DNA from: Emcibacter sp. SYSU 3D8
Lineage (GTDB): Bacteria; Pseudomonadota; Alphaproteobacteria; SMXS01
NCBI RefSeq assembly: GCF_039655875.1
Contig: NZ_JBBYXK010000006.1
Span: 62,001 to 126,000, forward strand
DNA: 64,000 nt
Direction: 5' to 3'
The position numbers and the translations under genes are program-made. Shown one piece after another: positions 10,048 through 23,149 of the stretch. Below the pieces are notes generated by a model, which was given only the letters and a program-made list of their open reading frames with translations, ran no database searches and was not told the origin of the DNA. The first letter of the stretch is position 1; each line of letters opens with the position of its first letter.

Positions 10048-10446
10048 ATGGGTGATTACGTATATCCCGGCATCGTCAGCAGCCTGGCGCTGCTGGTCTG
10101 CTATTACACGCTGCTGCGCTCGGGAATTGCGCGGCGCAAATTCAAGATCGAGCCGCCGGCACACACCGGACCGGAAGAATACGAACGCTATGTGCGGGCA
10201 CATCAGAACACCATTGAACACCTCGTCCTGTTCCTGCCTGGCCTGTGGCTCTTTTCGCTGGCCTGGAATCCTGTCGTGGCGGCGGTCATTGGCGCCACCT
10301 GGCTACCCGGCCGCCTGTTCTATGCTCATGGCTACTACAGATCCGCGCCCGCTCGCAGGCCAGGATTGCTGGCCAGCATGCCAGCGGTCTACATCCTCGT
10401 GCTCGGATCGCTCATCGGCTTCGTAGCCGAATTATTCCGGGCCTGA
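10048..10446 (+). CDS. MAPEG-family membrane protein
   Basis: A 132-residue, four-helix inner-membrane protein. GGGAGGGG precedes the ATG. The RAHQNTIEHLVLFLP segment around residue 50 and the FYAHGYYRSA segment near residue 92 match the MAPEG signature (glutathione-dependent eicosanoid and xenobiotic enzymes; bacterial homologs mostly glutathione transferase/peroxidase-like). It ends 24 bases before the CphA-like gene, so the two may be cotranscribed. Confidence 0.82.
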   Translation: MGDYVYPGIVSSLALLVCYYTLLRSGIARRKFKIEPPAHTGPEEYERYVRAHQNTIEHLVLFLPGLWLFSLAWNPVVAAVIGATWLPGRLFYAHGYYRSAPARRPGLLASMPAVYILVLGSLIGFVAELFRA

Positions 10447-10470: not shown

Positions 10471-12348
10471 GTGAAAGTCAGGATTCTCAGGATATATCAT
10501 GGGCCCAGCTGGTACTCGCTGCAGTCGGCGATCCTTTGGGCCCTGGACGGCGACGCTGACGAGGTCAGTGCTGCCGCAAATGCCGGCTGGCCGGCCTTCG
10601 ACGCCGAATTTCCTCATGCAACGCCGCTCAGGCCGGCGGCGAACGCCTCTCCGACACTGCGCGTCGCTCTCCTGATCGCTGCATGGACCAAGGAGCTGCT
10701 GAACAGCACCAACGGACTGGTCGAGGACGCCGGCGCGACCGATCGCGCGTCCGGCCAGGTCGTCGGCTGGTGTGGCTTTGAGAATGAAAGGGTAGCCCGC
10801 CAGGCTCTCGTCATCGCCGTCTCATCGATCGCAGCGAATGCCGGCACGCCGGTTGCCCCCGAGACAATGGCGCGCGAGATGTTGCATTTCAAGGCCGGTG
10901 CGGCATCGGCGTATCTCAGCCGTTCTAGGCGTGTGGTTAGCATGGGTGCACGTTCACGGGACATTCCCTATGCGCGCTCGCTGTTTCACCCGGGGCTTTG
11001 GCATTATGGCTGGGGACGCGCCGGTCGACACATCCAGGAAACCGCCAGCAACGGCGATGGCTTGATCGGCATGCGGATTGCCAGGGACAAGAGGGTTGCG
11101 TGCCAGTTCGTGCGCACGCTCGGCTATCCGGCCCCCGATCACGCGAGTGTAGCCAGCGCGGACGAAGCGGTCGCACTCGCTGCCCGCATGGGCGGGCCTG
11201 TCGTCATCAAACCGGCCGATGGTGGCAAGGGTCATGGCGTCTTCGTGAATGTCGAAAGCGAGCAGGCCATCAGGTGGGCATTCGCCGGAGCGCGAGAATG
11301 GACCACGGAACCTGTTCTCGTGGAGCGCTTCGTGCCAGGCGAAGATTACCGCCTTCTGGTCATCAACGGCGTGCTCGTTGCGGCGGCCTTGCGCAAGACA
11401 CCAACGGTCATCGGAGACGGAAAGCGCAATGTCAGGCGGTTGATCCGCGACCTCGAATGGACGCGCACCGCGAACCCGATCACGGCGAAATACCTGTTCA
11501 AGGTCGTTGTCGACGAGGCGCTCCTCGGCGAGTTGCGCCGGCAGGGCGCCGACATGGATACGGTTCCAGATGCAGGCGTAGCCTTGAAGCTGCGCGGCAA
11601 TGCCAATGTCAGCACCGGCGGCATACCCACGGATGTCATGGACATTGTTCACCCTCATGTCCGGGACATGGCCGAAGCCATTGCCCGTAATGTGGGGCTC
11701 CATGCGGCCGGCATTGACTATATCACCCCTGACATTTCCAGGTCCTGGCGGGACACTGCCGGCAGCGTCATTGAAATCAACGAAGTTCCGGGGCTCGACC
11801 TTCACATCGCGAGCGGCGTCAGCGAAGCAGAAATCGGGGCGGCAATCCTTGGTCCCAAGGTCGGCCGCATACCCGTCGCCGTGATTATTGCCCCGCTACC
11901 GGATCAGAACGTCCTGATCCGGCTGTTACGCGCCACGATCGGACAGAGCCATGCATGGCAGTTCGGCGTTCTGGGCGGCGGTAAACTGACGGTCGGTGAT
12001 ACCGAACTAACCTGTCTCAGCGACCGGCCCCAGAACCAGGTTCAGCAATTGTTGCAGAACCGGCAATGCGCCGCCGCCTTGCTGTGCGTAACGCCCGAGA
12101 CCGTCGCGGCGGCCGGCTTTCCCGTAGACCGGTGCCAGTTGACCGTGCTCGGCGCCGGCCTGCCGCAATCACGTTTCCTGCACGCGCTCGCCGCGCGCTG
12201 CTCCGAGCATGTTCTCGAGACTGAAGATGTGACTATATGGCCGGGGAACGAGGTAATTGCCGCGCTGCGGTCGGTCCTGCAAGCCCCCATCGAGGCGGCG
12301 AACCACAGTGTCCCCACCAAACTCCAAGTTGAACCGCAGCGGATTTAG
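10471..12348 (+). CDS. Cyanophycin-synthetase-like ATP-grasp protein with degenerate Mur-ligase module (CphA2-like)
   Basis: 625 residues, GTG start. Residues 1-150 correspond to the N-terminal CphA domain (opening K-V-R-I-L-R-I-Y-x-G-P-S). Residues 195-450 are the glutathione-synthetase-like ATP-grasp domain: VVIKPADGGKGHGV (Lys247), VERFVPGEDYRLLVING, NANVSTGGIPTDVMDIVHP, and the metal-binding EINEVPG (Glu435, Asn437). Residue 465 starts GRIPV, as in CphA where the Mur-ligase P-loop GTNGKTT follows. Here it is replaced by APLPDQN, and the module ends after about 160 residues instead of about 400. Full CphA alternately adds Asp and Arg at two ATP sites. CphA2 proteins with a shortened Mur domain polymerise beta-Asp-Arg dipeptides with one site. 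By analogy this enzyme has one amide-ligating site. No cphB or dipeptidase is nearby. Confidence 0.82.
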   Translation: MKVRILRIYHGPSWYSLQSAILWALDGDADEVSAAANAGWPAFDAEFPHATPLRPAANASPTLRVALLIAAWTKELLNSTNGLVEDAGATDRASGQVVGWCGFENERVARQALVIAVSSIAANAGTPVAPETMAREMLHFKAGAASAYLSRSRRVVSMGARSRDIPYARSLFHPGLWHYGWGRAGRHIQETASNGDGLIGMRIARDKRVACQFVRTLGYPAPDHASVASADEAVALAARMGGPVVIKPADGGKGHGVFVNVESEQAIRWAFAGAREWTTEPVLVERFVPGEDYRLLVINGVLVAAALRKTPTVIGDGKRNVRRLIRDLEWTRTANPITAKYLFKVVVDEALLGELRRQGADMDTVPDAGVALKLRGNANVSTGGIPTDVMDIVHPHVRDMAEAIARNVGLHAAGIDYITPDISRSWRDTAGSVIEINEVPGLDLHIASGVSEAEIGAAILGPKVGRIPVAVIIAPLPDQNVLIRLLRATIGQSHAWQFGVLGGGKLTVGDTELTCLSDRPQNQVQQLLQNRQCAAALLCVTPETVAAAGFPVDRCQLTVLGAGLPQSRFLHALAARCSEHVLETEDVTIWPGNEVIAALRSVLQAPIEAANHSVPTKLQVEPQRI

Positions 12349-12439: not shown

Positions 12440-14668
12440 ATGCTGGAGGGCGCTGATCTAGGCGGCATCAACGCCGTTGGCGCGGTCATATGGGGCGCCG
12501 CCGCCTGCGTATCCCTGTTCATGCTGGTCAGGATTCGCAGCATGCGGATTCTGCTGGGAGCAGCGTCGCTGATCCTGATCGCGCTGGGCGCCAGCCTGCA
12601 GGCCGGTATCCTTGACGTTACCGGCATCGACCTCAGCGGCTTCGACATCACGTCCATGGGCGGCAGCCAGATGTTGCTGACCCTCAGCAGCATTCCAATG
12701 CTTCTGTCGGTCTTGCTGGCTGCGCAGTACCGGCACCAGCGCAGCATTCAGGAGACGGCGCTGGGCAATTCAATCAGCGGTGTCGCCATTGCCACGCTCG
12801 ACGGCAAAATCCAGTACGCCAACGACTCGTTCCTGACACTCGTCGGGGCCGACGAGAGCAAGGATGTGCAAGGACATCGCACCCACGAGTTCTTCATGGA
12901 CCCTGAGCGTGCCAGGGACGTTCTCGATATCATTCGGGAAAAGGGCAGCTGGCGCGGCGAGATAATCGTCCGGCGCACCGACGGGAGCAGCAAGGAAGTG
13001 GATCTTCACGCCTCGCTGACTCGCGATTCCGAAGGCACGCCAACGGCCATCATCGGCTCATTCGCCGATATGAGCCATAGCCGCGAGAAGGAGCGTCAGC
13101 TGAGATTCAGCAATTCGCTCCTGACCAATCTGGTCGAGACCGCGCCGATCCTGCTGTGGACCGCCGATTCCGATGGCCAGATTGGCCTGGTGTGCGGCCG
13201 CGGCTTCGACCGCATCAAGCAGCTGGCCGATGAAGGTGTCGGCGTCGCGCGTCCGGCGCCGGGCACATCGATGTACGATCTGTTTCAAAACGTACCCGAC
13301 ATCGAGCAGCATGTGAGCCGGGCCCTGCTCGGCAGACCATCGCGATTCGAATGGCAATGCGGTCCTTCAGTCGTGTTCGAGGCCCAGATCAGTCCGCGGC
13401 ACGCACCCGGCGGCAAGGTCACAGGAATTGTCGGCGTCGCGCTCGATGTGTCTACGCGTGTCGCCGCCGAGCACGCGCTCGAGCGTAACCTCAAGCGGCA
13501 GGTCGAGATCGAACAACGGCTTGACCGGGCGCAAAGGCTCGAGGCGGTTGGCCGCCTCACCGGCGGCGTCGCCCACGATTTCAACAATCTGCTGACAACC
13601 ATCCTGGGGAACATTGATCTGGTCCTGGACCTGGCCGGCGCGGACTCCGAGATTAAACGCTATGCGGACTCGGCCTCGCGCGCGGCCAACCGGGGATCGG
13701 AACTGACTCACCGCCTGCTCGCGTTCTCGCGCCAGCAGGCGTTGCACCCTCAAGCGACCGACGTCCACAAGCTGCTTGATGACCTTACCGTCATGCTTGG
13801 CCGTACATTGCCGGAGACGGTCACCATTGTGCGGAATTTCGACAGGGAGACCGTGCTCGCGGCGATCGATCCGGGACAACTCGAGAACGCGATCCTCAAT
13901 CTCGCGCTCAACGCCCGCGACGCCATGCCCAATGGCGGCACCTTGACCATCTCGACACAGGCACGCCCACGCCACGCGGCAGGCTACACCGGCAGCGCCG
14001 AGCGCCTGGTCGCCATCGTGGTGAGCGACACCGGCACCGGCATGAGCCCGCAAGTGCTCGACAGGGCTTTCGAGCCGTTTTTCACCACCAAGATGGGGAA
14101 ACCATCCGAAGCGGTCGGATCCGGGCTCGGGCTCAGTATGGTCTACGGTTTCGCGGCCCAGTCTGACGGATACGTCGATATCGACAGCACGCCAGGCAAG
14201 GGTACCGTCGTCACGCTGTATCTGCCCTATGGTGCGGCGGCAGACGGTCAAGTAGAGGCCAAAAAGGCTGATTTGCGCGAGATTCAGAAGGGCAGCGACC
14301 GGATCATGGTGGTCGAGGACGATCCCGATGTGCGCCAGTTCGTCGTCAATGCCCTCAAGCGGCTCGGCTATTCGGTCGTGTCCGCCGAGAACGGTCCCGA
14401 GGCCATGGAGGTTGCCCATCAATCCGGCGGGATCGACCTGCTCATTTCCGACGTGGTGCTGCCGGGCGGCATGACCGGCCCCGATGTCGCCGACCGTTTC
14501 CTGGAGATCTTTCCCAACGGCAAGGTGCTCTTCACGTCAGGTTATATCGGCGACGACCTGGTAATGCGCTCGCGCCTCGAAAACGATGTCGAGCTGCTGC
14601 CGAAGCCCTATACGCTCCAGACACTCGCCACCAAGGTGCGAACCGTCCTCGATCCGATGCTTCACTGA
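12440..14668 (+). CDS. Hybrid histidine kinase (membrane, PAS, HisKA, HATPase, receiver)
   Basis: 742 residues. Two or three N-terminal membrane helices (about 12-100) are followed by a PAS domain (about 110-215), a second PAS-like sensor region (about 220-345), HisKA with phospho-acceptor His379 in GGVAHDFNNLL, HATPase_c (N box NLALNARDAM, G1 DTGTGM, F FFTTK, G2 GSGLGLSM) and a C-terminal receiver with Asp671 and Lys in LPKPY. The receiver being fused implies intramolecular phosphotransfer and probably an unlinked phosphotransfer or response partner. No response regulator gene is adjacent. The HDFNN variant and this layout are common in alphaproteobacterial HWE-unrelated hybrid kinases of unknown signal. 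Confidence 0.9.
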   Translation: MLEGADLGGINAVGAVIWGAAACVSLFMLVRIRSMRILLGAASLILIALGASLQAGILDVTGIDLSGFDITSMGGSQMLLTLSSIPMLLSVLLAAQYRHQRSIQETALGNSISGVAIATLDGKIQYANDSFLTLVGADESKDVQGHRTHEFFMDPERARDVLDIIREKGSWRGEIIVRRTDGSSKEVDLHASLTRDSEGTPTAIIGSFADMSHSREKERQLRFSNSLLTNLVETAPILLWTADSDGQIGLVCGRGFDRIKQLADEGVGVARPAPGTSMYDLFQNVPDIEQHVSRALLGRPSRFEWQCGPSVVFEAQISPRHAPGGKVTGIVGVALDVSTRVAAEHALERNLKRQVEIEQRLDRAQRLEAVGRLTGGVAHDFNNLLTTILGNIDLVLDLAGADSEIKRYADSASRAANRGSELTHRLLAFSRQQALHPQATDVHKLLDDLTVMLGRTLPETVTIVRNFDRETVLAAIDPGQLENAILNLALNARDAMPNGGTLTISTQARPRHAAGYTGSAERLVAIVVSDTGTGMSPQVLDRAFEPFFTTKMGKPSEAVGSGLGLSMVYGFAAQSDGYVDIDSTPGKGTVVTLYLPYGAAADGQVEAKKADLREIQKGSDRIMVVEDDPDVRQFVVNALKRLGYSVVSAENGPEAMEVAHQSGGIDLLISDVVLPGGMTGPDVADRFLEIFPNGKVLFTSGYIGDDLVMRSRLENDVELLPKPYTLQTLATKVRTVLDPMLH

Positions 14669-17759: not shown

Positions 17760-20700
17760 TCAGTGGAAGAACCGCCCCTTGTCCAGGAATGCTTCCGGCG
17801 CGTCCTCGGGTCTGTCGGTCAACAGGGTCAACCAGCCGTTGATCTCGTGAACCTTCTCGACGATCAGGTGAATGACGTTATCGGCGCTCTCCACCTTTCC
17901 TTCACAGGCCATCAGCCGCGAGGTCAGCGTTTCACGCCGGTATTTCTCATATACGCCCGGAAACACCACCAGGTTGGCGACACCGGTCTCGTCCTCCAGG
18001 GTAATGAACATCACGTCCTTGGCCGTACCCGGCCGCTGCCGCGCCAGCACCACGCCCGCCACGATGATCCGGCTGCCGTTGCGTGCGGTCGCCAGAGCCC
18101 GTGTCGGCCGCGCGCCTGCTGCCGACAGCCGCTCCCGCAACAGCGCCACCGGATGCTGCTTCAGGGAAAGCTGCGTGGTCTGGTAATCGGCGACGACGTG
18201 CTCGCCCAGTCCCATGCCCGGCAGATGGGATTCCTGCTCCACCACGCCGCCGTGATCCAGCGCCTCGAACAATGGCAGTGGCTTGGCTTCCGACAACCGC
18301 TTGACCGCCCACGCCGCCTGGCGCCGGTCCAGCCCCAATGACTGGAACGCATCCGCTTCGGCAAGCCGCTCCAGCGCCCTCGGCGTCAAGCCGGCCTTCT
18401 GCCACAAATCCAGCGGCGACCGGTAGCCACTCCCGCGATACGCCATCAGCTTCTCGGCTTCGCGCGCGGCCAGACCCTTGATCTGCCGCAGCCCGAGCCG
18501 CAGGGCGGGGCGCTGTCCATCCACTGGCTCCAGCGTGCAGTCCCAATCCGACAGGTTCACATCGGCGGGCCGCACCGCGCCATTATGGTCGCGCAGGTCC
18601 CTCACCAGTTGCGCGGGCGCATAAAACCCCATCGGATAGGAGTTCAGCAGTCCTGCGGTGAACGCCTCCGGGTAATGATATTTCAGCCAGGACGATACAT
18701 AGGCCAGCAGTGCGAAGCTGGCCGCATGGCTTTCGGGAAAGCCGTAATCGCCAAAGCCCTCGATCTGGCTGAAGCAACGCTCCGCGAACTCCCGTTCATA
18801 ATCTCTCGCGACCATGCCCTCGATGAACTCGTCGCGGAACTGGTCGATGGTGCCAAGATGCCGGAACGTCGCCATGGCGCGGCGCAGCTTGTCGGCCCGC
18901 GACGGGCTGAAACCGGCGGCAACGATGGCGATCTTCATCGCCTGTTCCTGGAACAGCGGCACACCCAGGGTGCGCCTCAGCACCTCCTCCAGTTCCGGCT
19001 TGGGAAACGCCACCGGCTCCAATCCCTTCCGCCGCCGCAGATAGGGGTGCACCATGTCGCCCTGGATCGGCCCGGGCCGCACGATCGCCACCTCGATCAC
19101 CAGGTCGTAATACGTCGCTGGCTTCAGGCGCGGCAACATGGCCATTTGCGCCCGGCTCTCGATCTGGAACACGCCGACCGTGTCAGCCTTCTGGATCATC
19201 CCATAGACGTCCTGGTCTTCTTGTGGAATTGTTGCCAGATCAAATACTTGGCCGTGATACCTGCGAATAAACTCGAATGTCTTCCGGATTGCCGTCAACA
19301 TGCCCAGAGCCAGCACGTCGACCTTGATCAGTCCCAGTTCTTCCAGATCGTCCTTGTTCCACTCGATGACCGTGCGGCCTTCCATGGCCGCGTTCTCGAT
19401 CGGCACCACCTCGCACAGCGGCCCGCGCGATATCACAAAGCCACCCGTATGCTGCGACAGATGCCGTGGGAATCCACGCAGTTCCGCGGCCAGCGTCAGC
19501 GCCAGCATCAGGGTCCGGTCCGCCGGATCCAGTCCTTCTTCTCGCGCCCGGTCACCATCCAGCGGACCCGACCACCAGGTGATGGTCTGCGACAGCTTGT
19601 CGATCAGGTCCGTGCTCAGTCCCATGGCCTTGGCCACGTCGCGGATCGCGCCCTTGCTTCGATAGCAGATCACGGTGGCCACAATGCCCGCGCGCTCGCG
19701 ACCATATTTCTCGTAGATGTACTGCATCACCTCTTCGCGCCGCTCGTGCTCGAAGTCCACGTCGATATCGGGCGGTTCGTTGCGGTCCGCCGACACGAAA
19801 CGTTCGAACAGCAGATCGACGATGGTCGGGTCGACCGATGTGATGCCCAGGCAGTAACAGACGACGGAATTCGCCGCCGATCCGCGCCCCTGGCACAGGA
19901 TGCCCTTGCCGCGGGCGAACCGGACCACATCGTTCACAGTCAGAAAGTACGGCGCGTAGTCCTTGTAGGCGATGAGCTTCAATTCATCGTTGATGCTCTT
20001 CTTCACCGTGTCGGGAATGCCGCCCGGATAACGCCACGCAGCGCCTTTCCACGCAAGATTCTCCAATTCTTCCTGTGGGTTGCGGCCGTTCTCTGTAATC
20101 TCGTCGGGGTATTCGTACCGCAGCTCGTCAAGCGAGAAACAACACTGCTCCAGTACCTCCATGGTCCGCCGGACCGCCTCCGGATGCTGGCGGAACAGCC
20201 GGCCCATTTCCTCGGGCGGCTTCAGGTGCCGCTCGGCGTTGGCGGCCAGCCGCCAGCCGGCCGTGGCAATGGTGCAATGTTCCCGGATACAGGTCAGCAC
20301 ATCCTGCAACCGCCGCCGTGCCGGATCGTGATAGTGGATGTCCCCCGTCGCCACCAGCGGCGCTCCAAACCGCGCCGCCAGCGTCTCAAGCCGCTCCAGC
20401 CGCTTGGCGTCGTCGCCCCGGTAATAATGGGTCGCGGCCAGATAGAGCGGCGCCTTCAAACCGTCCCGCCAGGCTCCCAGCTCGGCCCCATACCCCTCAT
20501 CCAGCACCACCGGCGGCACGGCAATGAACAGATTGTCCTCGGCCGCCTCGAGCACGTCCGCTCGGGACAGCCAGCAATCTCCCTTGGGCGCGGCCCGCCG
20601 CCCCCTGGTAATCAGCCGCGCCAGCCGCGCATAGCCCGACCGGTTGCGCGGATAGCACAGCACGCTGGGCGCATCGGTCAGATCGAGCCGCGCACCCACC

Positions 20701-20906
20701 GCAAGCCTGATCCTGGTGCCGGTCTCCTTATGGATTTCCTTGGCGGCCCGATGCGCCCGCACCACCCCGGCCAGCGTGTTGCGGTCGGCGATCGATACAC
20801 CTTCCATGCCCAGTGCCGCCGCCTGCCCGACCAACTCCTCTGGATGAGAGCCACCCCGCAAGAAACTGAAATTACTGGTGATCTGAAGTTCCGCATAAGC
20901 CGTCAC
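17760..20906 (-). CDS. dnaE2: Error-prone DNA polymerase DnaE2 (ImuC)
   Basis: 1048 residues, near the usual DnaE2 length. N-terminal PHP domain (YAELQITSNFSFLRGGSHPEE abbreviated: Y-A-E-L-Q with SNFSFLRG), then the C-family polymerase core with the catalytic aspartates in PPDIDVDFEHERR and GRGSAANS near residue 340, then a helix-hairpin-helix and a C-terminal OB fold (about 935-1020). GTG start overlaps the imuB stop as GTGA. As ImuC it performs translesion synthesis together with ImuB during SOS-induced mutagenesis. Confidence 0.95.
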   Translation of the reverse strand: MTAYAELQITSNFSFLRGGSHPEELVGQAAALGMEGVSIADRNTLAGVVRAHRAAKEIHKETGTRIRLAVGARLDLTDAPSVLCYPRNRSGYARLARLITRGRRAAPKGDCWLSRADVLEAAEDNLFIAVPPVVLDEGYGAELGAWRDGLKAPLYLAATHYYRGDDAKRLERLETLAARFGAPLVATGDIHYHDPARRRLQDVLTCIREHCTIATAGWRLAANAERHLKPPEEMGRLFRQHPEAVRRTMEVLEQCCFSLDELRYEYPDEITENGRNPQEELENLAWKGAAWRYPGGIPDTVKKSINDELKLIAYKDYAPYFLTVNDVVRFARGKGILCQGRGSAANSVVCYCLGITSVDPTIVDLLFERFVSADRNEPPDIDVDFEHERREEVMQYIYEKYGRERAGIVATVICYRSKGAIRDVAKAMGLSTDLIDKLSQTITWWSGPLDGDRAREEGLDPADRTLMLALTLAAELRGFPRHLSQHTGGFVISRGPLCEVVPIENAAMEGRTVIEWNKDDLEELGLIKVDVLALGMLTAIRKTFEFIRRYHGQVFDLATIPQEDQDVYGMIQKADTVGVFQIESRAQMAMLPRLKPATYYDLVIEVAIVRPGPIQGDMVHPYLRRRKGLEPVAFPKPELEEVLRRTLGVPLFQEQAMKIAIVAAGFSPSRADKLRRAMATFRHLGTIDQFRDEFIEGMVARDYEREFAERCFSQIEGFGDYGFPESHAASFALLAYVSSWLKYHYPEAFTAGLLNSYPMGFYAPAQLVRDLRDHNGAVRPADVNLSDWDCTLEPVDGQRPALRLGLRQIKGLAAREAEKLMAYRGSGYRSPLDLWQKAGLTPRALERLAEADAFQSLGLDRRQAAWAVKRLSEAKPLPLFEALDHGGVVEQESHLPGMGLGEHVVADYQTTQLSLKQHPVALLRERLSAAGARPTRALATARNGSRIIVAGVVLARQRPGTAKDVMFITLEDETGVANLVVFPGVYEKYRRETLTSRLMACEGKVESADNVIHLIVEKVHEINGWLTLLTDRPEDAPEAFLDKGRFFH

Positions 20907-22426
20907 GCGAACACCCCGTGCAGGAACCAGCGCGGCGCGGTGCTTCCGTCATACAGGCCCTGCCGGAACAGCCAGTAGCGCCGCCCGTCCTCGTCCTCCA
21001 CCTGGTAATAGTCCCGCGGCGGCTCGTCCTTCAGCCACCATTCGCCTTCCAGCCGCTCCGGTCCATCGGCGGCGCGCACCCGATATGCCTTGCCTCCCCG
21101 CCGGAACATCATCGGCGGATCGTCGGGTACCAGCGCGGTCGCCTCCACGGGCTCGGGCACCTTCAGCAGCCGCAGCGGCCGCTCACGGCCGGTCGGCCAC
21201 CCGGGTGTCTCCGTTGCCGTAAACGGCGCGGCATCCTCCACCGCCCGTTCCGGCAGCCAGCTCTGGCGCGGCGCCGGACGGGCGATCCGCCCAAAGCCGA
21301 AGCGGTTGCCCAGCCGGTCGACCAGCTCGGTCAGGCCAGCCGCCCCGTCCCCCTTCACCTGCCAGTTCTCCTGGGCCGGCTTCAGCGTTTCCACGCGCGT
21401 GGCCGACACCGTCATGACCTCTACGCCGAAGCCCGGATCCACCTCATCCAGTTTCTCATAAAACAGCCGGAACAAGGGCTCACTCCAGCGCGATGGCCGG
21501 CTGGTCCCCACGCGGATTCGGGCTGCCGTGCCATCCACCCGATAGCAGGCCAGGGTCAGCTGCCGCGCGCCCTCGCCCGACCGGGTGAGGTTGCGGCAAA
21601 GTTCTTCCAGCAGCCTTCTCAGCCCGGTTTCGATACCATCGCGTGTCACCAGCGGCTCCAGGCACGCCACCCGCGCCTCGTGAACCGGTACCGGTACGAT
21701 CGGTGAAATCGGTTCGTCCACCACGCCCAGCGCCTGGTCCAGCCTTTGTACCGGTTCGGCCGCAAACCGCTCGGTCAACGCCCGCCGCTCCAGCGGATAG
21801 AGCGCACCGAACGTGCGCAGCCCGAACGAAGTCAGGCTGTCCAGCGTATCCGGTGACAGCCGCAACGCAGTCAGCGGAAAGTCCTTCATCGCCGTCATGG
21901 CGTCGGTCAGCGCCGCGAACGGCTCCAGGATGGTCATTTCCTCCCGCCGTGTCCGGCAGGCGGCCCAGGCGGCGCCCGGCGTGTCGGCGATCGCCGTCAG
22001 CGGCGTCAGGCCAAAGCCCTTCAGCCGGGCCACCAGGTCGGCTGCCAGCGCCGCCTCGCCGCCGAACAGATGCGCACAGCCCGAAATGTCGAGGAACAGG
22101 CTGTCACCCTCCGCCAGCCCGGTCCAGGGCGTGTAGCGCATCGTCCAGTTGGCGAGCCGTACCAGAGCCGCGCGATCCGCCGCCGCGTTGATGAAGCGGG
22201 TCTGCAGCGTCGGCTGCACCGCCCGCGCATCCGCCAGCACCATGCCCGGCTTCAGACCGCCATGAAATGCCCGGCGATTGACCGCTGCCAGCACCAGTCG
22301 GCCGCGCCGTTCCTCGATAGCCGCCAGCACCTGCTTGGCCAGTTCCGGCTCCCGCCGTACCAGCCGCTCGCTCACCAGCCACGGAAACCAGATCGTTAAA
22401 ATTCTTTTTTTGTTATTCCTTCTCAT
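20903..22426 (-). CDS. imuB: Y-family polymerase homolog ImuB
   Basis: 507 residues. Y-family fold with little-finger and C-terminal extension, including LTIWFPWLVSERLVRREPE and LDISGCAHLFGGE. The acidic residues that bind catalytic metal in active Y-family enzymes are not in place, as is known for ImuB, which acts as a hub bridging the beta clamp, ImuA and DnaE2. It starts three bases after the imuA stop. The start region is AT-rich and contains an A7 run at codons 6-8 (22405-22411). Confidence 0.93.
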   Translation of the reverse strand: MRRNNKKRILTIWFPWLVSERLVRREPELAKQVLAAIEERRGRLVLAAVNRRAFHGGLKPGMVLADARAVQPTLQTRFINAAADRAALVRLANWTMRYTPWTGLAEGDSLFLDISGCAHLFGGEAALAADLVARLKGFGLTPLTAIADTPGAAWAACRTRREEMTILEPFAALTDAMTAMKDFPLTALRLSPDTLDSLTSFGLRTFGALYPLERRALTERFAAEPVQRLDQALGVVDEPISPIVPVPVHEARVACLEPLVTRDGIETGLRRLLEELCRNLTRSGEGARQLTLACYRVDGTAARIRVGTSRPSRWSEPLFRLFYEKLDEVDPGFGVEVMTVSATRVETLKPAQENWQVKGDGAAGLTELVDRLGNRFGFGRIARPAPRQSWLPERAVEDAAPFTATETPGWPTGRERPLRLLKVPEPVEATALVPDDPPMMFRRGGKAYRVRAADGPERLEGEWWLKDEPPRDYYQVEDEDGRRYWLFRQGLYDGSTAPRWFLHGVFA

Positions 22427-22429
22427 GGC

Positions 22430-23149
22430 TTACCCGGCAATCTTGAGATTTTCCCGGAGAACCTCGGTTTCTGCCGCACTGATCGCCGTCCAGCCTTTGG
22501 GACTCCACACCACCGTCCATGTCGCCGGCCGGCCGTTGCGGCAGCGGGCCAGTTCTACACGCCAGCAGGGCCAGCCCACGCCCGAACCGTCCGGCAGGCT
22601 GGGCATGGCCGTCACCTGCCAGCGGCTCAATGCCGTCGCCGCGCCGCCGCGCCCGGCCTCGCCCAGCAACAGGCAGGTCACCCCGCCCGTCTCCGCCGCC
22701 AGCTGCAACCGCCGGCTGGCGGTGAAGTCCGCCGCACGGATCTCGCCCACCACCGCCGAAAGGGCACCGCAATGCAGCGCCTCCTCGATGGCCCACAGCA
22801 TGTCCGCGTCACGGCTGATGCCCGAGACGGTCAGCACCGATCCCGCCTGCAGCCCGAACCGTACCAGTCCGGGCATGTAGAGATCGTTACCCCGCTCCAG
22901 CCACAGTACCGGCCGTCCGTCCGTGTCATGGAGCCGGGCAAGCAGCGCCGCGCAGAACCCGGTCGCCGCCCCGTCGCCGCGCACCTCGTGCACGCCGGCC
23001 AGCGGCAGTCCGCCTTCCGGCAGCGCGCCATCCACAGGTTTCATGCCCAGCGGCAGAACTGGATGACCAGCCGCCTGGCCGATGCCTTCGATCCGGCGGA
23101 TGCGGTCCCGCAACATCGCCGTCACGCTGCTGTTCATGTTCCCTGGCAT
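22430..23149 (-). CDS. imuA: ImuA, RecA-like mutasome protein
   Basis: 239 residues with a RecA/SulA-like core (LPLGMKPVDGALPEGGLPLAGVHEV near residue 30, and GRPVLWLERG near residue 80). ImuA is required with ImuB and DnaE2 for damage-induced mutagenesis. It heads a three-gene operon in tight array. A LexA box lies about 20 bases upstream. A second ATG at 23137 has AGGG three bases before it and could also be used. Assignment rests on length, context and the partial core motif. Confidence 0.9.
   Translation of the reverse strand: MPGNMNSSVTAMLRDRIRRIEGIGQAAGHPVLPLGMKPVDGALPEGGLPLAGVHEVRGDGAATGFCAALLARLHDTDGRPVLWLERGNDLYMPGLVRFGLQAGSVLTVSGISRDADMLWAIEEALHCGALSAVVGEIRAADFTASRRLQLAAETGGVTCLLLGEAGRGGAATALSRWQVTAMPSLPDGSGVGWPCWRVELARCRNGRPATWTVVWSPKGWTAISAAETEVLRENLKIAG

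Follow-up and report, generated by a model that had tools for sequence, protein, structure and literature searches.

The closest described systems are the cyanophycin synthetases CphA1 and CphA2. In TeCphA1, K220 and K261 bind the ATP phosphates, D431 and E450 bind Mg, R309 holds the carboxylate of the growing chain, and His267 lies in the G-domain loop that contacts phosphate; on the substrate side, Arg458 provides the contact to the alpha-carboxylate of the incoming Asp and Glu215 the one to the Arg side chain of cyanophycin (PMC9427784). CphA2 is defined by an N domain, a G domain and a truncated Mur core devoid of the P-loop and the lid (PMC9427784). CphA homologues are taken as evidence of cyanophycin storage, as was done for the 2-5 "CphA" copies per genome of coral Prosthecochloris (PMC10158934). 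The gene analyzed here lies in a stretch of 64,000 nucleotides from the alphaproteobacterium Emcibacter sp. SYSU 3D8 (the window), and its product belongs to an apparently undescribed family related to these enzymes. The features are collected in Table 1.

Table 1. Location of the gene, its neighbours, its domains and key codons, and of the CphA' genes used for comparison
Feature	Position	Strand	Basis
CphA-derived P-loop-less ATP-grasp protein, 625 aa, clade I member	10471..12348	+	homology, tree, model
MAPEG-family membrane protein	10048..10446	+	Pfam; stop 24 nt before the GTG of the gene under study
Hybrid sensor histidine kinase (PAS, HisKA, HATPase, receiver)	12440..14668	+	downstream syntenic neighbour
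N domain, aa 1-149, without Cx19HxxEH	10471..10917	+	whole-length structural match to CphA1/CphA2, motif scan
G domain (ATP-grasp), aa 150-465	10918..11865	+	alignment, residue census, single-domain structural matches
Degenerate Mur-ligase core (predicted), aa 466-608, no P-loop, no lid	11866..12294	+	model, profile, structural matches
APLPDQN (aa 474-480) in place of Mur P-loop GTNGKTT	11890..11910	+	translation, CphA1 alignment
Arg202 codon, place of TeCphA1 Glu215	11074..11076	+	alignment, census
Lys253 codon, place of TeCphA1 His267	11227..11229	+	alignment, census
Asp443 codon, place of TeCphA1 Arg458	11797..11799	+	alignment, census
CphA' beside CphA1 in betaproteobacteria	L117 5432-7963, L089 5416-7938, L203 1957-4143, L088, L092, L091, L086, L081, L209

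Domain plan and predicted fold

The protein is encoded by a single open reading frame, from a GTG start at the first position of the gene to a stop codon that ends at its last, and this start was consistent with the N-termini of the orthologues. By sequence, the protein matched cyanophycin synthetases far above chance. The NCBIfam model PRK14016 (cyanophycin synthetase) was found with an E-value of 5.7e-93 and about 312 bits (312.6) over aa 104-559, below its cut-off of 877, and TIGR02068 scored 259.4 against a cut-off of 850; the sequences of the solved structures were matched at 1.2e-57 (CphA1) and 3e-45 (CphA2). The length of 625 aa compares with about 870-930 aa in CphA1. Furthermore, the motif Cx19HxxEH, with which CphA1 makes its primer, was not found by a motif scan in CphA2 or in the two P-loop-less clades described below.

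A sequence-only reading of this DNA had described the gene as a CphA2-like enzyme with a vestigial Mur module, and most of its structural statements were confirmed. The landmarks it had listed for the ATP-grasp half of CphA were present, KPADGGKG at aa 247-254, NANVSTGG at aa 377-384 and EINEVPG at aa 435-441, and GRIPV was located at aa 465-469, where the Mur module begins. The replacement of the P-loop and the truncation of the module were also recovered, and the chain ended without a lid.

An AlphaFold2 model, computed with a 22-sequence alignment of relatives (A3), reached a mean pLDDT of 90.5 and a pTM of 0.87, and only the last 17 residues were predicted to be disordered. The superposition on CphA1 and CphA2, which that reading had proposed, gave a whole-length match to both. 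The best whole-length TM-score, 0.77/0.82, was obtained with Gloeothece CphA2 7TA5 (603 alignment columns); with the same aligner, structures of CphA1 also superposed along the entire chain. With a second aligner, the Z scores were 29.3 for CphA1 7WAE and 27.9 for CphA2 7TA5 (561 residues, rmsd 3.8 Å), while ATP-grasp enzymes from other families reached Z scores of 15-22, mostly aligned over aa 145-467.

When the profile of the C-terminal part was searched, the CphA M domain was the first match (1.3e-6, a value helped by about 25 G-domain residues at its edge); a query with aa 462-625 as a single sequence returned no matches at all. Since the profile found the CphA1 M domain first and the CphA structures matched the whole length, the C-terminus is, as modelled, a degenerate Mur core rather than a new domain. 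No unrelated domain was seen over aa 465-625, and membership in a non-CphA ATP-grasp family was discarded, with GshF, Ddl and RimK matching the G domain only. Hence, as judged from the model, the CphA2 plan is real in this alphaproteobacterial protein, with the G domain intact and the Mur P-loop and lid lost.

Phylogenetic position and substrate pocket

The phylogeny was based on the G domains of 127 sequences, including 29 CphA1, 11 cyanobacterial CphA2, 25 clade I proteins and nine CphA'. CphA1 and CphA' formed one group (support 97), and the 11 cyanobacterial CphA2 formed a separate clade on a long branch (support 100). The window protein was placed outside the CphA2 clade, in the P-loop-less clade I, together with sequences from proteobacteria, Chlorobiaceae and one record titled Synechococcus. 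A second large P-loop-less group, clade II, contained about 44 sequences. Clade I and CphA2 were joined at support 96, and none of the AU tests led to a rejection, whether clade I was placed with CphA2 (p 0.74), with CphA1 (p 0.19) or with clade II (p 0.60). Because these tests reject no deep branching order, the claim is limited to a position outside the CphA2 clade, a sister relation to CphA2 being neither supported nor rejected by them. The suggested comparison with both families resulted in a clade of its own within the CphA relatives, and the identification of the protein as a CphA2 had to be abandoned, given this exclusion and substrate-contact residues that differ from those of both CphA1 and CphA2.

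These residues were obtained from a census of 13 sites in the 127 sequences by alignment to TeCphA1, with the roles taken from PMC9427784. K207, K247, R294 and R308 of the window protein corresponded to K220, K261, R309 and R323 of TeCphA1, N379, D416, E435 and N437 corresponded to N394, D431, E450 and N452, and E285 was also E in TeCphA1. The TeCphA1-type K220, K261, D431, E450, R309 and R323 did not vary among the 25 sequences of clade I, the window protein included. The ATP-grasp site (K207, K247, E285, D416, E435 and N437) was invariant, as in an ATP-grasp ligase with a CphA-type G domain.

The contacts to the substrates were different. Position 458 was R in 29 of 29 CphA1, F, Y, L or S in CphA2 and D in 21 of the 25 clade I proteins; this charge reversal at the invariant Asp-binding residue argued against Asp as the acceptor. 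At position 215, where the window protein has Arg202, all 11 CphA2 carried D or E. The change at this site weighs less than that at Arg458, because Glu215 was conserved in only 15 of the 29 CphA1. Lys253 occupied position 267, which was K in 10 of 11 CphA2 and H in 20 of 29 CphA1.

The nine CphA' lacked the Mur P-loop, kept Arg323 in no case and had mostly lost Ser396; for these reasons they may be non-catalytic partners. The window protein lay outside their clade and had no CphA1 neighbour.

Gene contexts and distribution of the family

The MAPEG gene and the gene studied here are probably in one transcript. MAPEG had been pointed out as an unusual partner; the neighbour itself is real, on the same strand and identified by Pfam. 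It also accompanied the orthologues of L043 and L044 and was absent in L045, so that it adjoined only this gene and its two closest orthologues, and an obligate partnership was not supported. The histidine kinase was kept downstream of the orthologues in all three loci and is a syntenic neighbour, for which no claim of pathway membership is made. The neighbours (MAPEG, SDR, TetR and the histidine kinase) constituted a genus-level syntenic block, and the gene had no biosynthetic cluster of its own. Since the surroundings are syntenic within the genus, adjacency alone says little. Elsewhere in the window, an apparent DnaE2-ImuB-ImuA-like mutagenic repair cassette was recognized by eye from the translations at 17760-23149 (-).

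The genome (4.07 Mb, 100% complete) contained three CphA-like genes, this one included, none of them with a Mur P-loop. The search for cphB, iadA and cphA1 that had been recommended was extended to this whole genome, in which neither a P-loop CphA, nor a cyanophycinase, nor an IaaA-type enzyme was found, and the isoaspartyl dipeptidase IadA was likewise absent, with a score of 20 bits where the cut-off is 331. Cyanophycinase and dipeptidase were also missing from about 1-27300 of the window, in agreement with the earlier statement that neither was a neighbour. Cyanophycin storage or recycling is unlikely in this genome because it lacks a P-loop CphA, a cyanophycinase and an isoaspartyl dipeptidase. 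The known task of CphA2 is to remake the polymer from recovered beta-Asp-Arg; with no cyanophycin made or degraded, this task would have no known substrate here.

The two paralogues were found in other contexts. The C1 paralogue (L056, 7943-17587) was accompanied by two methyltransferases, one AMP-binding and one chorismate-binding enzyme, an amidase-like protein and a protein of unknown family. This biosynthetic-looking cluster is conserved in the genus and was kept wholly or partly in L050, L052, L054 and L062. The locus of the C5 paralogue (L055) also encoded a glycosyltransferase and a phosphodiesterase of type I, a pair present in L051 as well, and similar genes occurred in L059 and in the Burkholderiaceae locus L073.

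P0001 matches were counted per genome, with P-loop CphA1 and CphA' included where present: Ramlibacter sp. WS9 had 13, a Burkholderiales MAG had 12, and two further Burkholderiales genomes, including Undibacterium fentianense, had nine each. Several matches were present in each of the six other searched genomes of the host's genus. Among 385 alphaproteobacterial genomes, matches at 1e-40 were limited to 19, and those of clade I type, the strongest, were all in this genus. In the order of Ramlibacter, matches of clade I strength (1e-75 or better) were limited to the two previously known of 300 genomes. Chlorobiaceae had matches in 20 of 81 genomes, and the P-loop motif was seen in one of the 31 frames read there, at least two of which were weaker, N-acetylglutaminylglutamine-synthetase-like matches. 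Nearly all CphA homologues of this family (L214-L243) lacked the Mur P-loop, and the storage reading for Prosthecochloris (PMC10158934) may need revision. L063 (titled Candidatus Kuenenia) and L083 (titled Rhizobium sp. Q54) are apparently MAGs of the host's genus, and their titles look wrong. The orthologue in L063 is 58% identical to the window protein.

Clade I and clade II genes were often adjacent (L072, L073, L084 and L102), and CphA-like relatives stood in tandem at these loci and at L074 and L200. One methyltransferase family was encoded beside CphA-like genes in 10 loci, from the host's genus, two Burkholderiales genomes and Cycloclasticus, and a methyltransferase domain was fused to the clade I protein of L084. 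Sulfotransferases, as well as fused or adjoining glycosyltransferases, were also observed in the contexts of relatives. Additionally, the clade I proteins of L066 (7812-10667) and L067 (7728-10622) measured 952-965 aa and were extended at the C-terminus, in L066 by a domain of glycosyltransferase family 2 (Pfam Glyco_tranf_2_4). In L060 (7108-18000), a CphA-like gene adjoined a phage-tail-like cluster of the contractile injection type, judged by eye from the translations.

Proposed function and comparison with known systems

Our data show the domain plan, the conserved ATP and Mg residues, the changed pocket, the missing cyanophycin pathway, the expanded family and its gene contexts; the activity, the chemistry and the metabolic role of the protein are inferred. 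The protein is fairly probably an active amide ligase of the ATP-grasp type whose product is not cyanophycin. Judging by the invariant residues and by homology, the G domain would bind ATP and two Mg ions and convert a substrate carboxylate to an acyl phosphate, which would then be attacked by an amine, so that this enzyme derived from the cyanophycin-synthetase family would form an amide (peptide or isopeptide) bond. The Mur half, its ATP site and lid lost, would be retained as a structural part. With the rebuilt pocket, a different small peptide or amide would be formed; it is probably a specialised metabolite, in line with the gene clusters of the paralogues. Other small-molecule substrates are probable because the pocket has changed and the rest of the cyanophycin pathway is missing from the genome; the earlier suggestion of a peptide other than cyanophycin agrees with both observations. 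Two findings counter this proposal: the G-loop His of CphA1 is replaced, although CphA2, which is active, mostly has Lys there as well, and no biosynthetic cluster surrounds the gene itself.

A functional CphA2 polymerising beta-Asp-Arg would account for the domain plan, the length, the top whole-length TM-score, the Lys in the G loop and the unrejected union of clade I with CphA2. Nevertheless, this is improbable, with cyanobacterial CphA2 in a fully supported clade of their own on a long branch, Arg202 where every CphA2 is acidic, Asp443 in place of F/Y/L/S, and no known source of beta-Asp-Arg, neither a P-loop CphA nor a cyanophycinase having been found in the genome. The dead Mur half and the lost G-loop His could also be those of a catalytically dead subunit or regulator of another CphA-like protein, as may hold for the betaproteobacterial CphA'; the frequent adjacency of clade I and clade II genes, and the clade II or other CphA-like gene that most examined clade I genomes also carry, would fit such a role. 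It is unlikely in view of ATP and Mg residues invariant throughout clade I, the Arg323 that CphA' has lost, the solitary position of the gene at its locus, and the genome of Synechococcus GreenBA-s, whose only match was one clade I gene.

An enzyme of RimK or graspetide type, modifying a ribosomally made protein or peptide, was considered because the G domain alone matched RimK, LysX/ArgX and PsnB, a graspetide ligase, and because the contexts of the broader family are varied; L072, for instance, adjoins genes for type I secretion. These matches were limited to aa 145-467 with scores far below those of CphA, and the 24 nt between the MAPEG gene and this gene leave no space for a precursor gene; we regard this possibility, too, as improbable. 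The amide ligase with a non-cyanophycin product is therefore the reading we prefer.

More tentatively, the window protein may represent a large family of amide ligases, undescribed and independent of NRPS, that arose from cyanophycin synthetase when the Mur active site was lost and then multiplied (up to 13 copies per genome in some Proteobacteria, several in Chlorobiaceae), building specialised metabolites with methyltransferases, AMP-ligases, sulfotransferases and glycosyltransferases under the database name of cyanophycin synthetase. No paper on a cyanophycin-synthetase-like ligase family in biosynthetic clusters was found in the open-licence literature. If the P-loop-less majority makes something else, inferences of storage from CphA homologues would fail, and a set of ligases for as yet uncharacterised peptides or amides would become accessible through gene clusters in public genomes. 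The CphA2 plan, in which one of two active sites is lost and the other re-used, would then not be confined to cyanobacteria.

In comparison with the described systems, the "CphA" of Prosthecochloris (PMC10158934), read there as cyanophycin storage, are multi-copy in Chlorobiaceae, a family that also yielded P-loop-less proteins of both clade I and clade II here. The betaproteobacterial CphA' are likewise CphA relatives without a Mur P-loop; however, they form their own clade (support 99) next to CphA1, measure 720-844 aa and have lost Arg323, whereas the window protein keeps Arg308. In contrast to CphA1 (TeCphA1, SuCphA1), the window protein has no Mur P-loop, lid or Cx19HxxEH, carries Asp for Arg458 and scores 312 bits against 877; the ATP and Mg residues, R309, R323, N394 and S396 are shared, as is the fold along the full shorter protein. 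Compared with CphA2, the window protein belongs to a separate clade, replaces the acidic residue at position 215 with Arg, has Asp443 instead of F/Y/L/S, and occurs outside cyanobacteria in a genome without the cyanophycin pathway. Nevertheless, it has in common with CphA2 (Gloeothece 7TA5, Stanieria 8FXH/8FXI) the N domain, the ATP-grasp G domain and the truncated Mur core, as well as a length of about 620-650 aa, the Lys in the G loop and the loss of the CphA1 primer motif.
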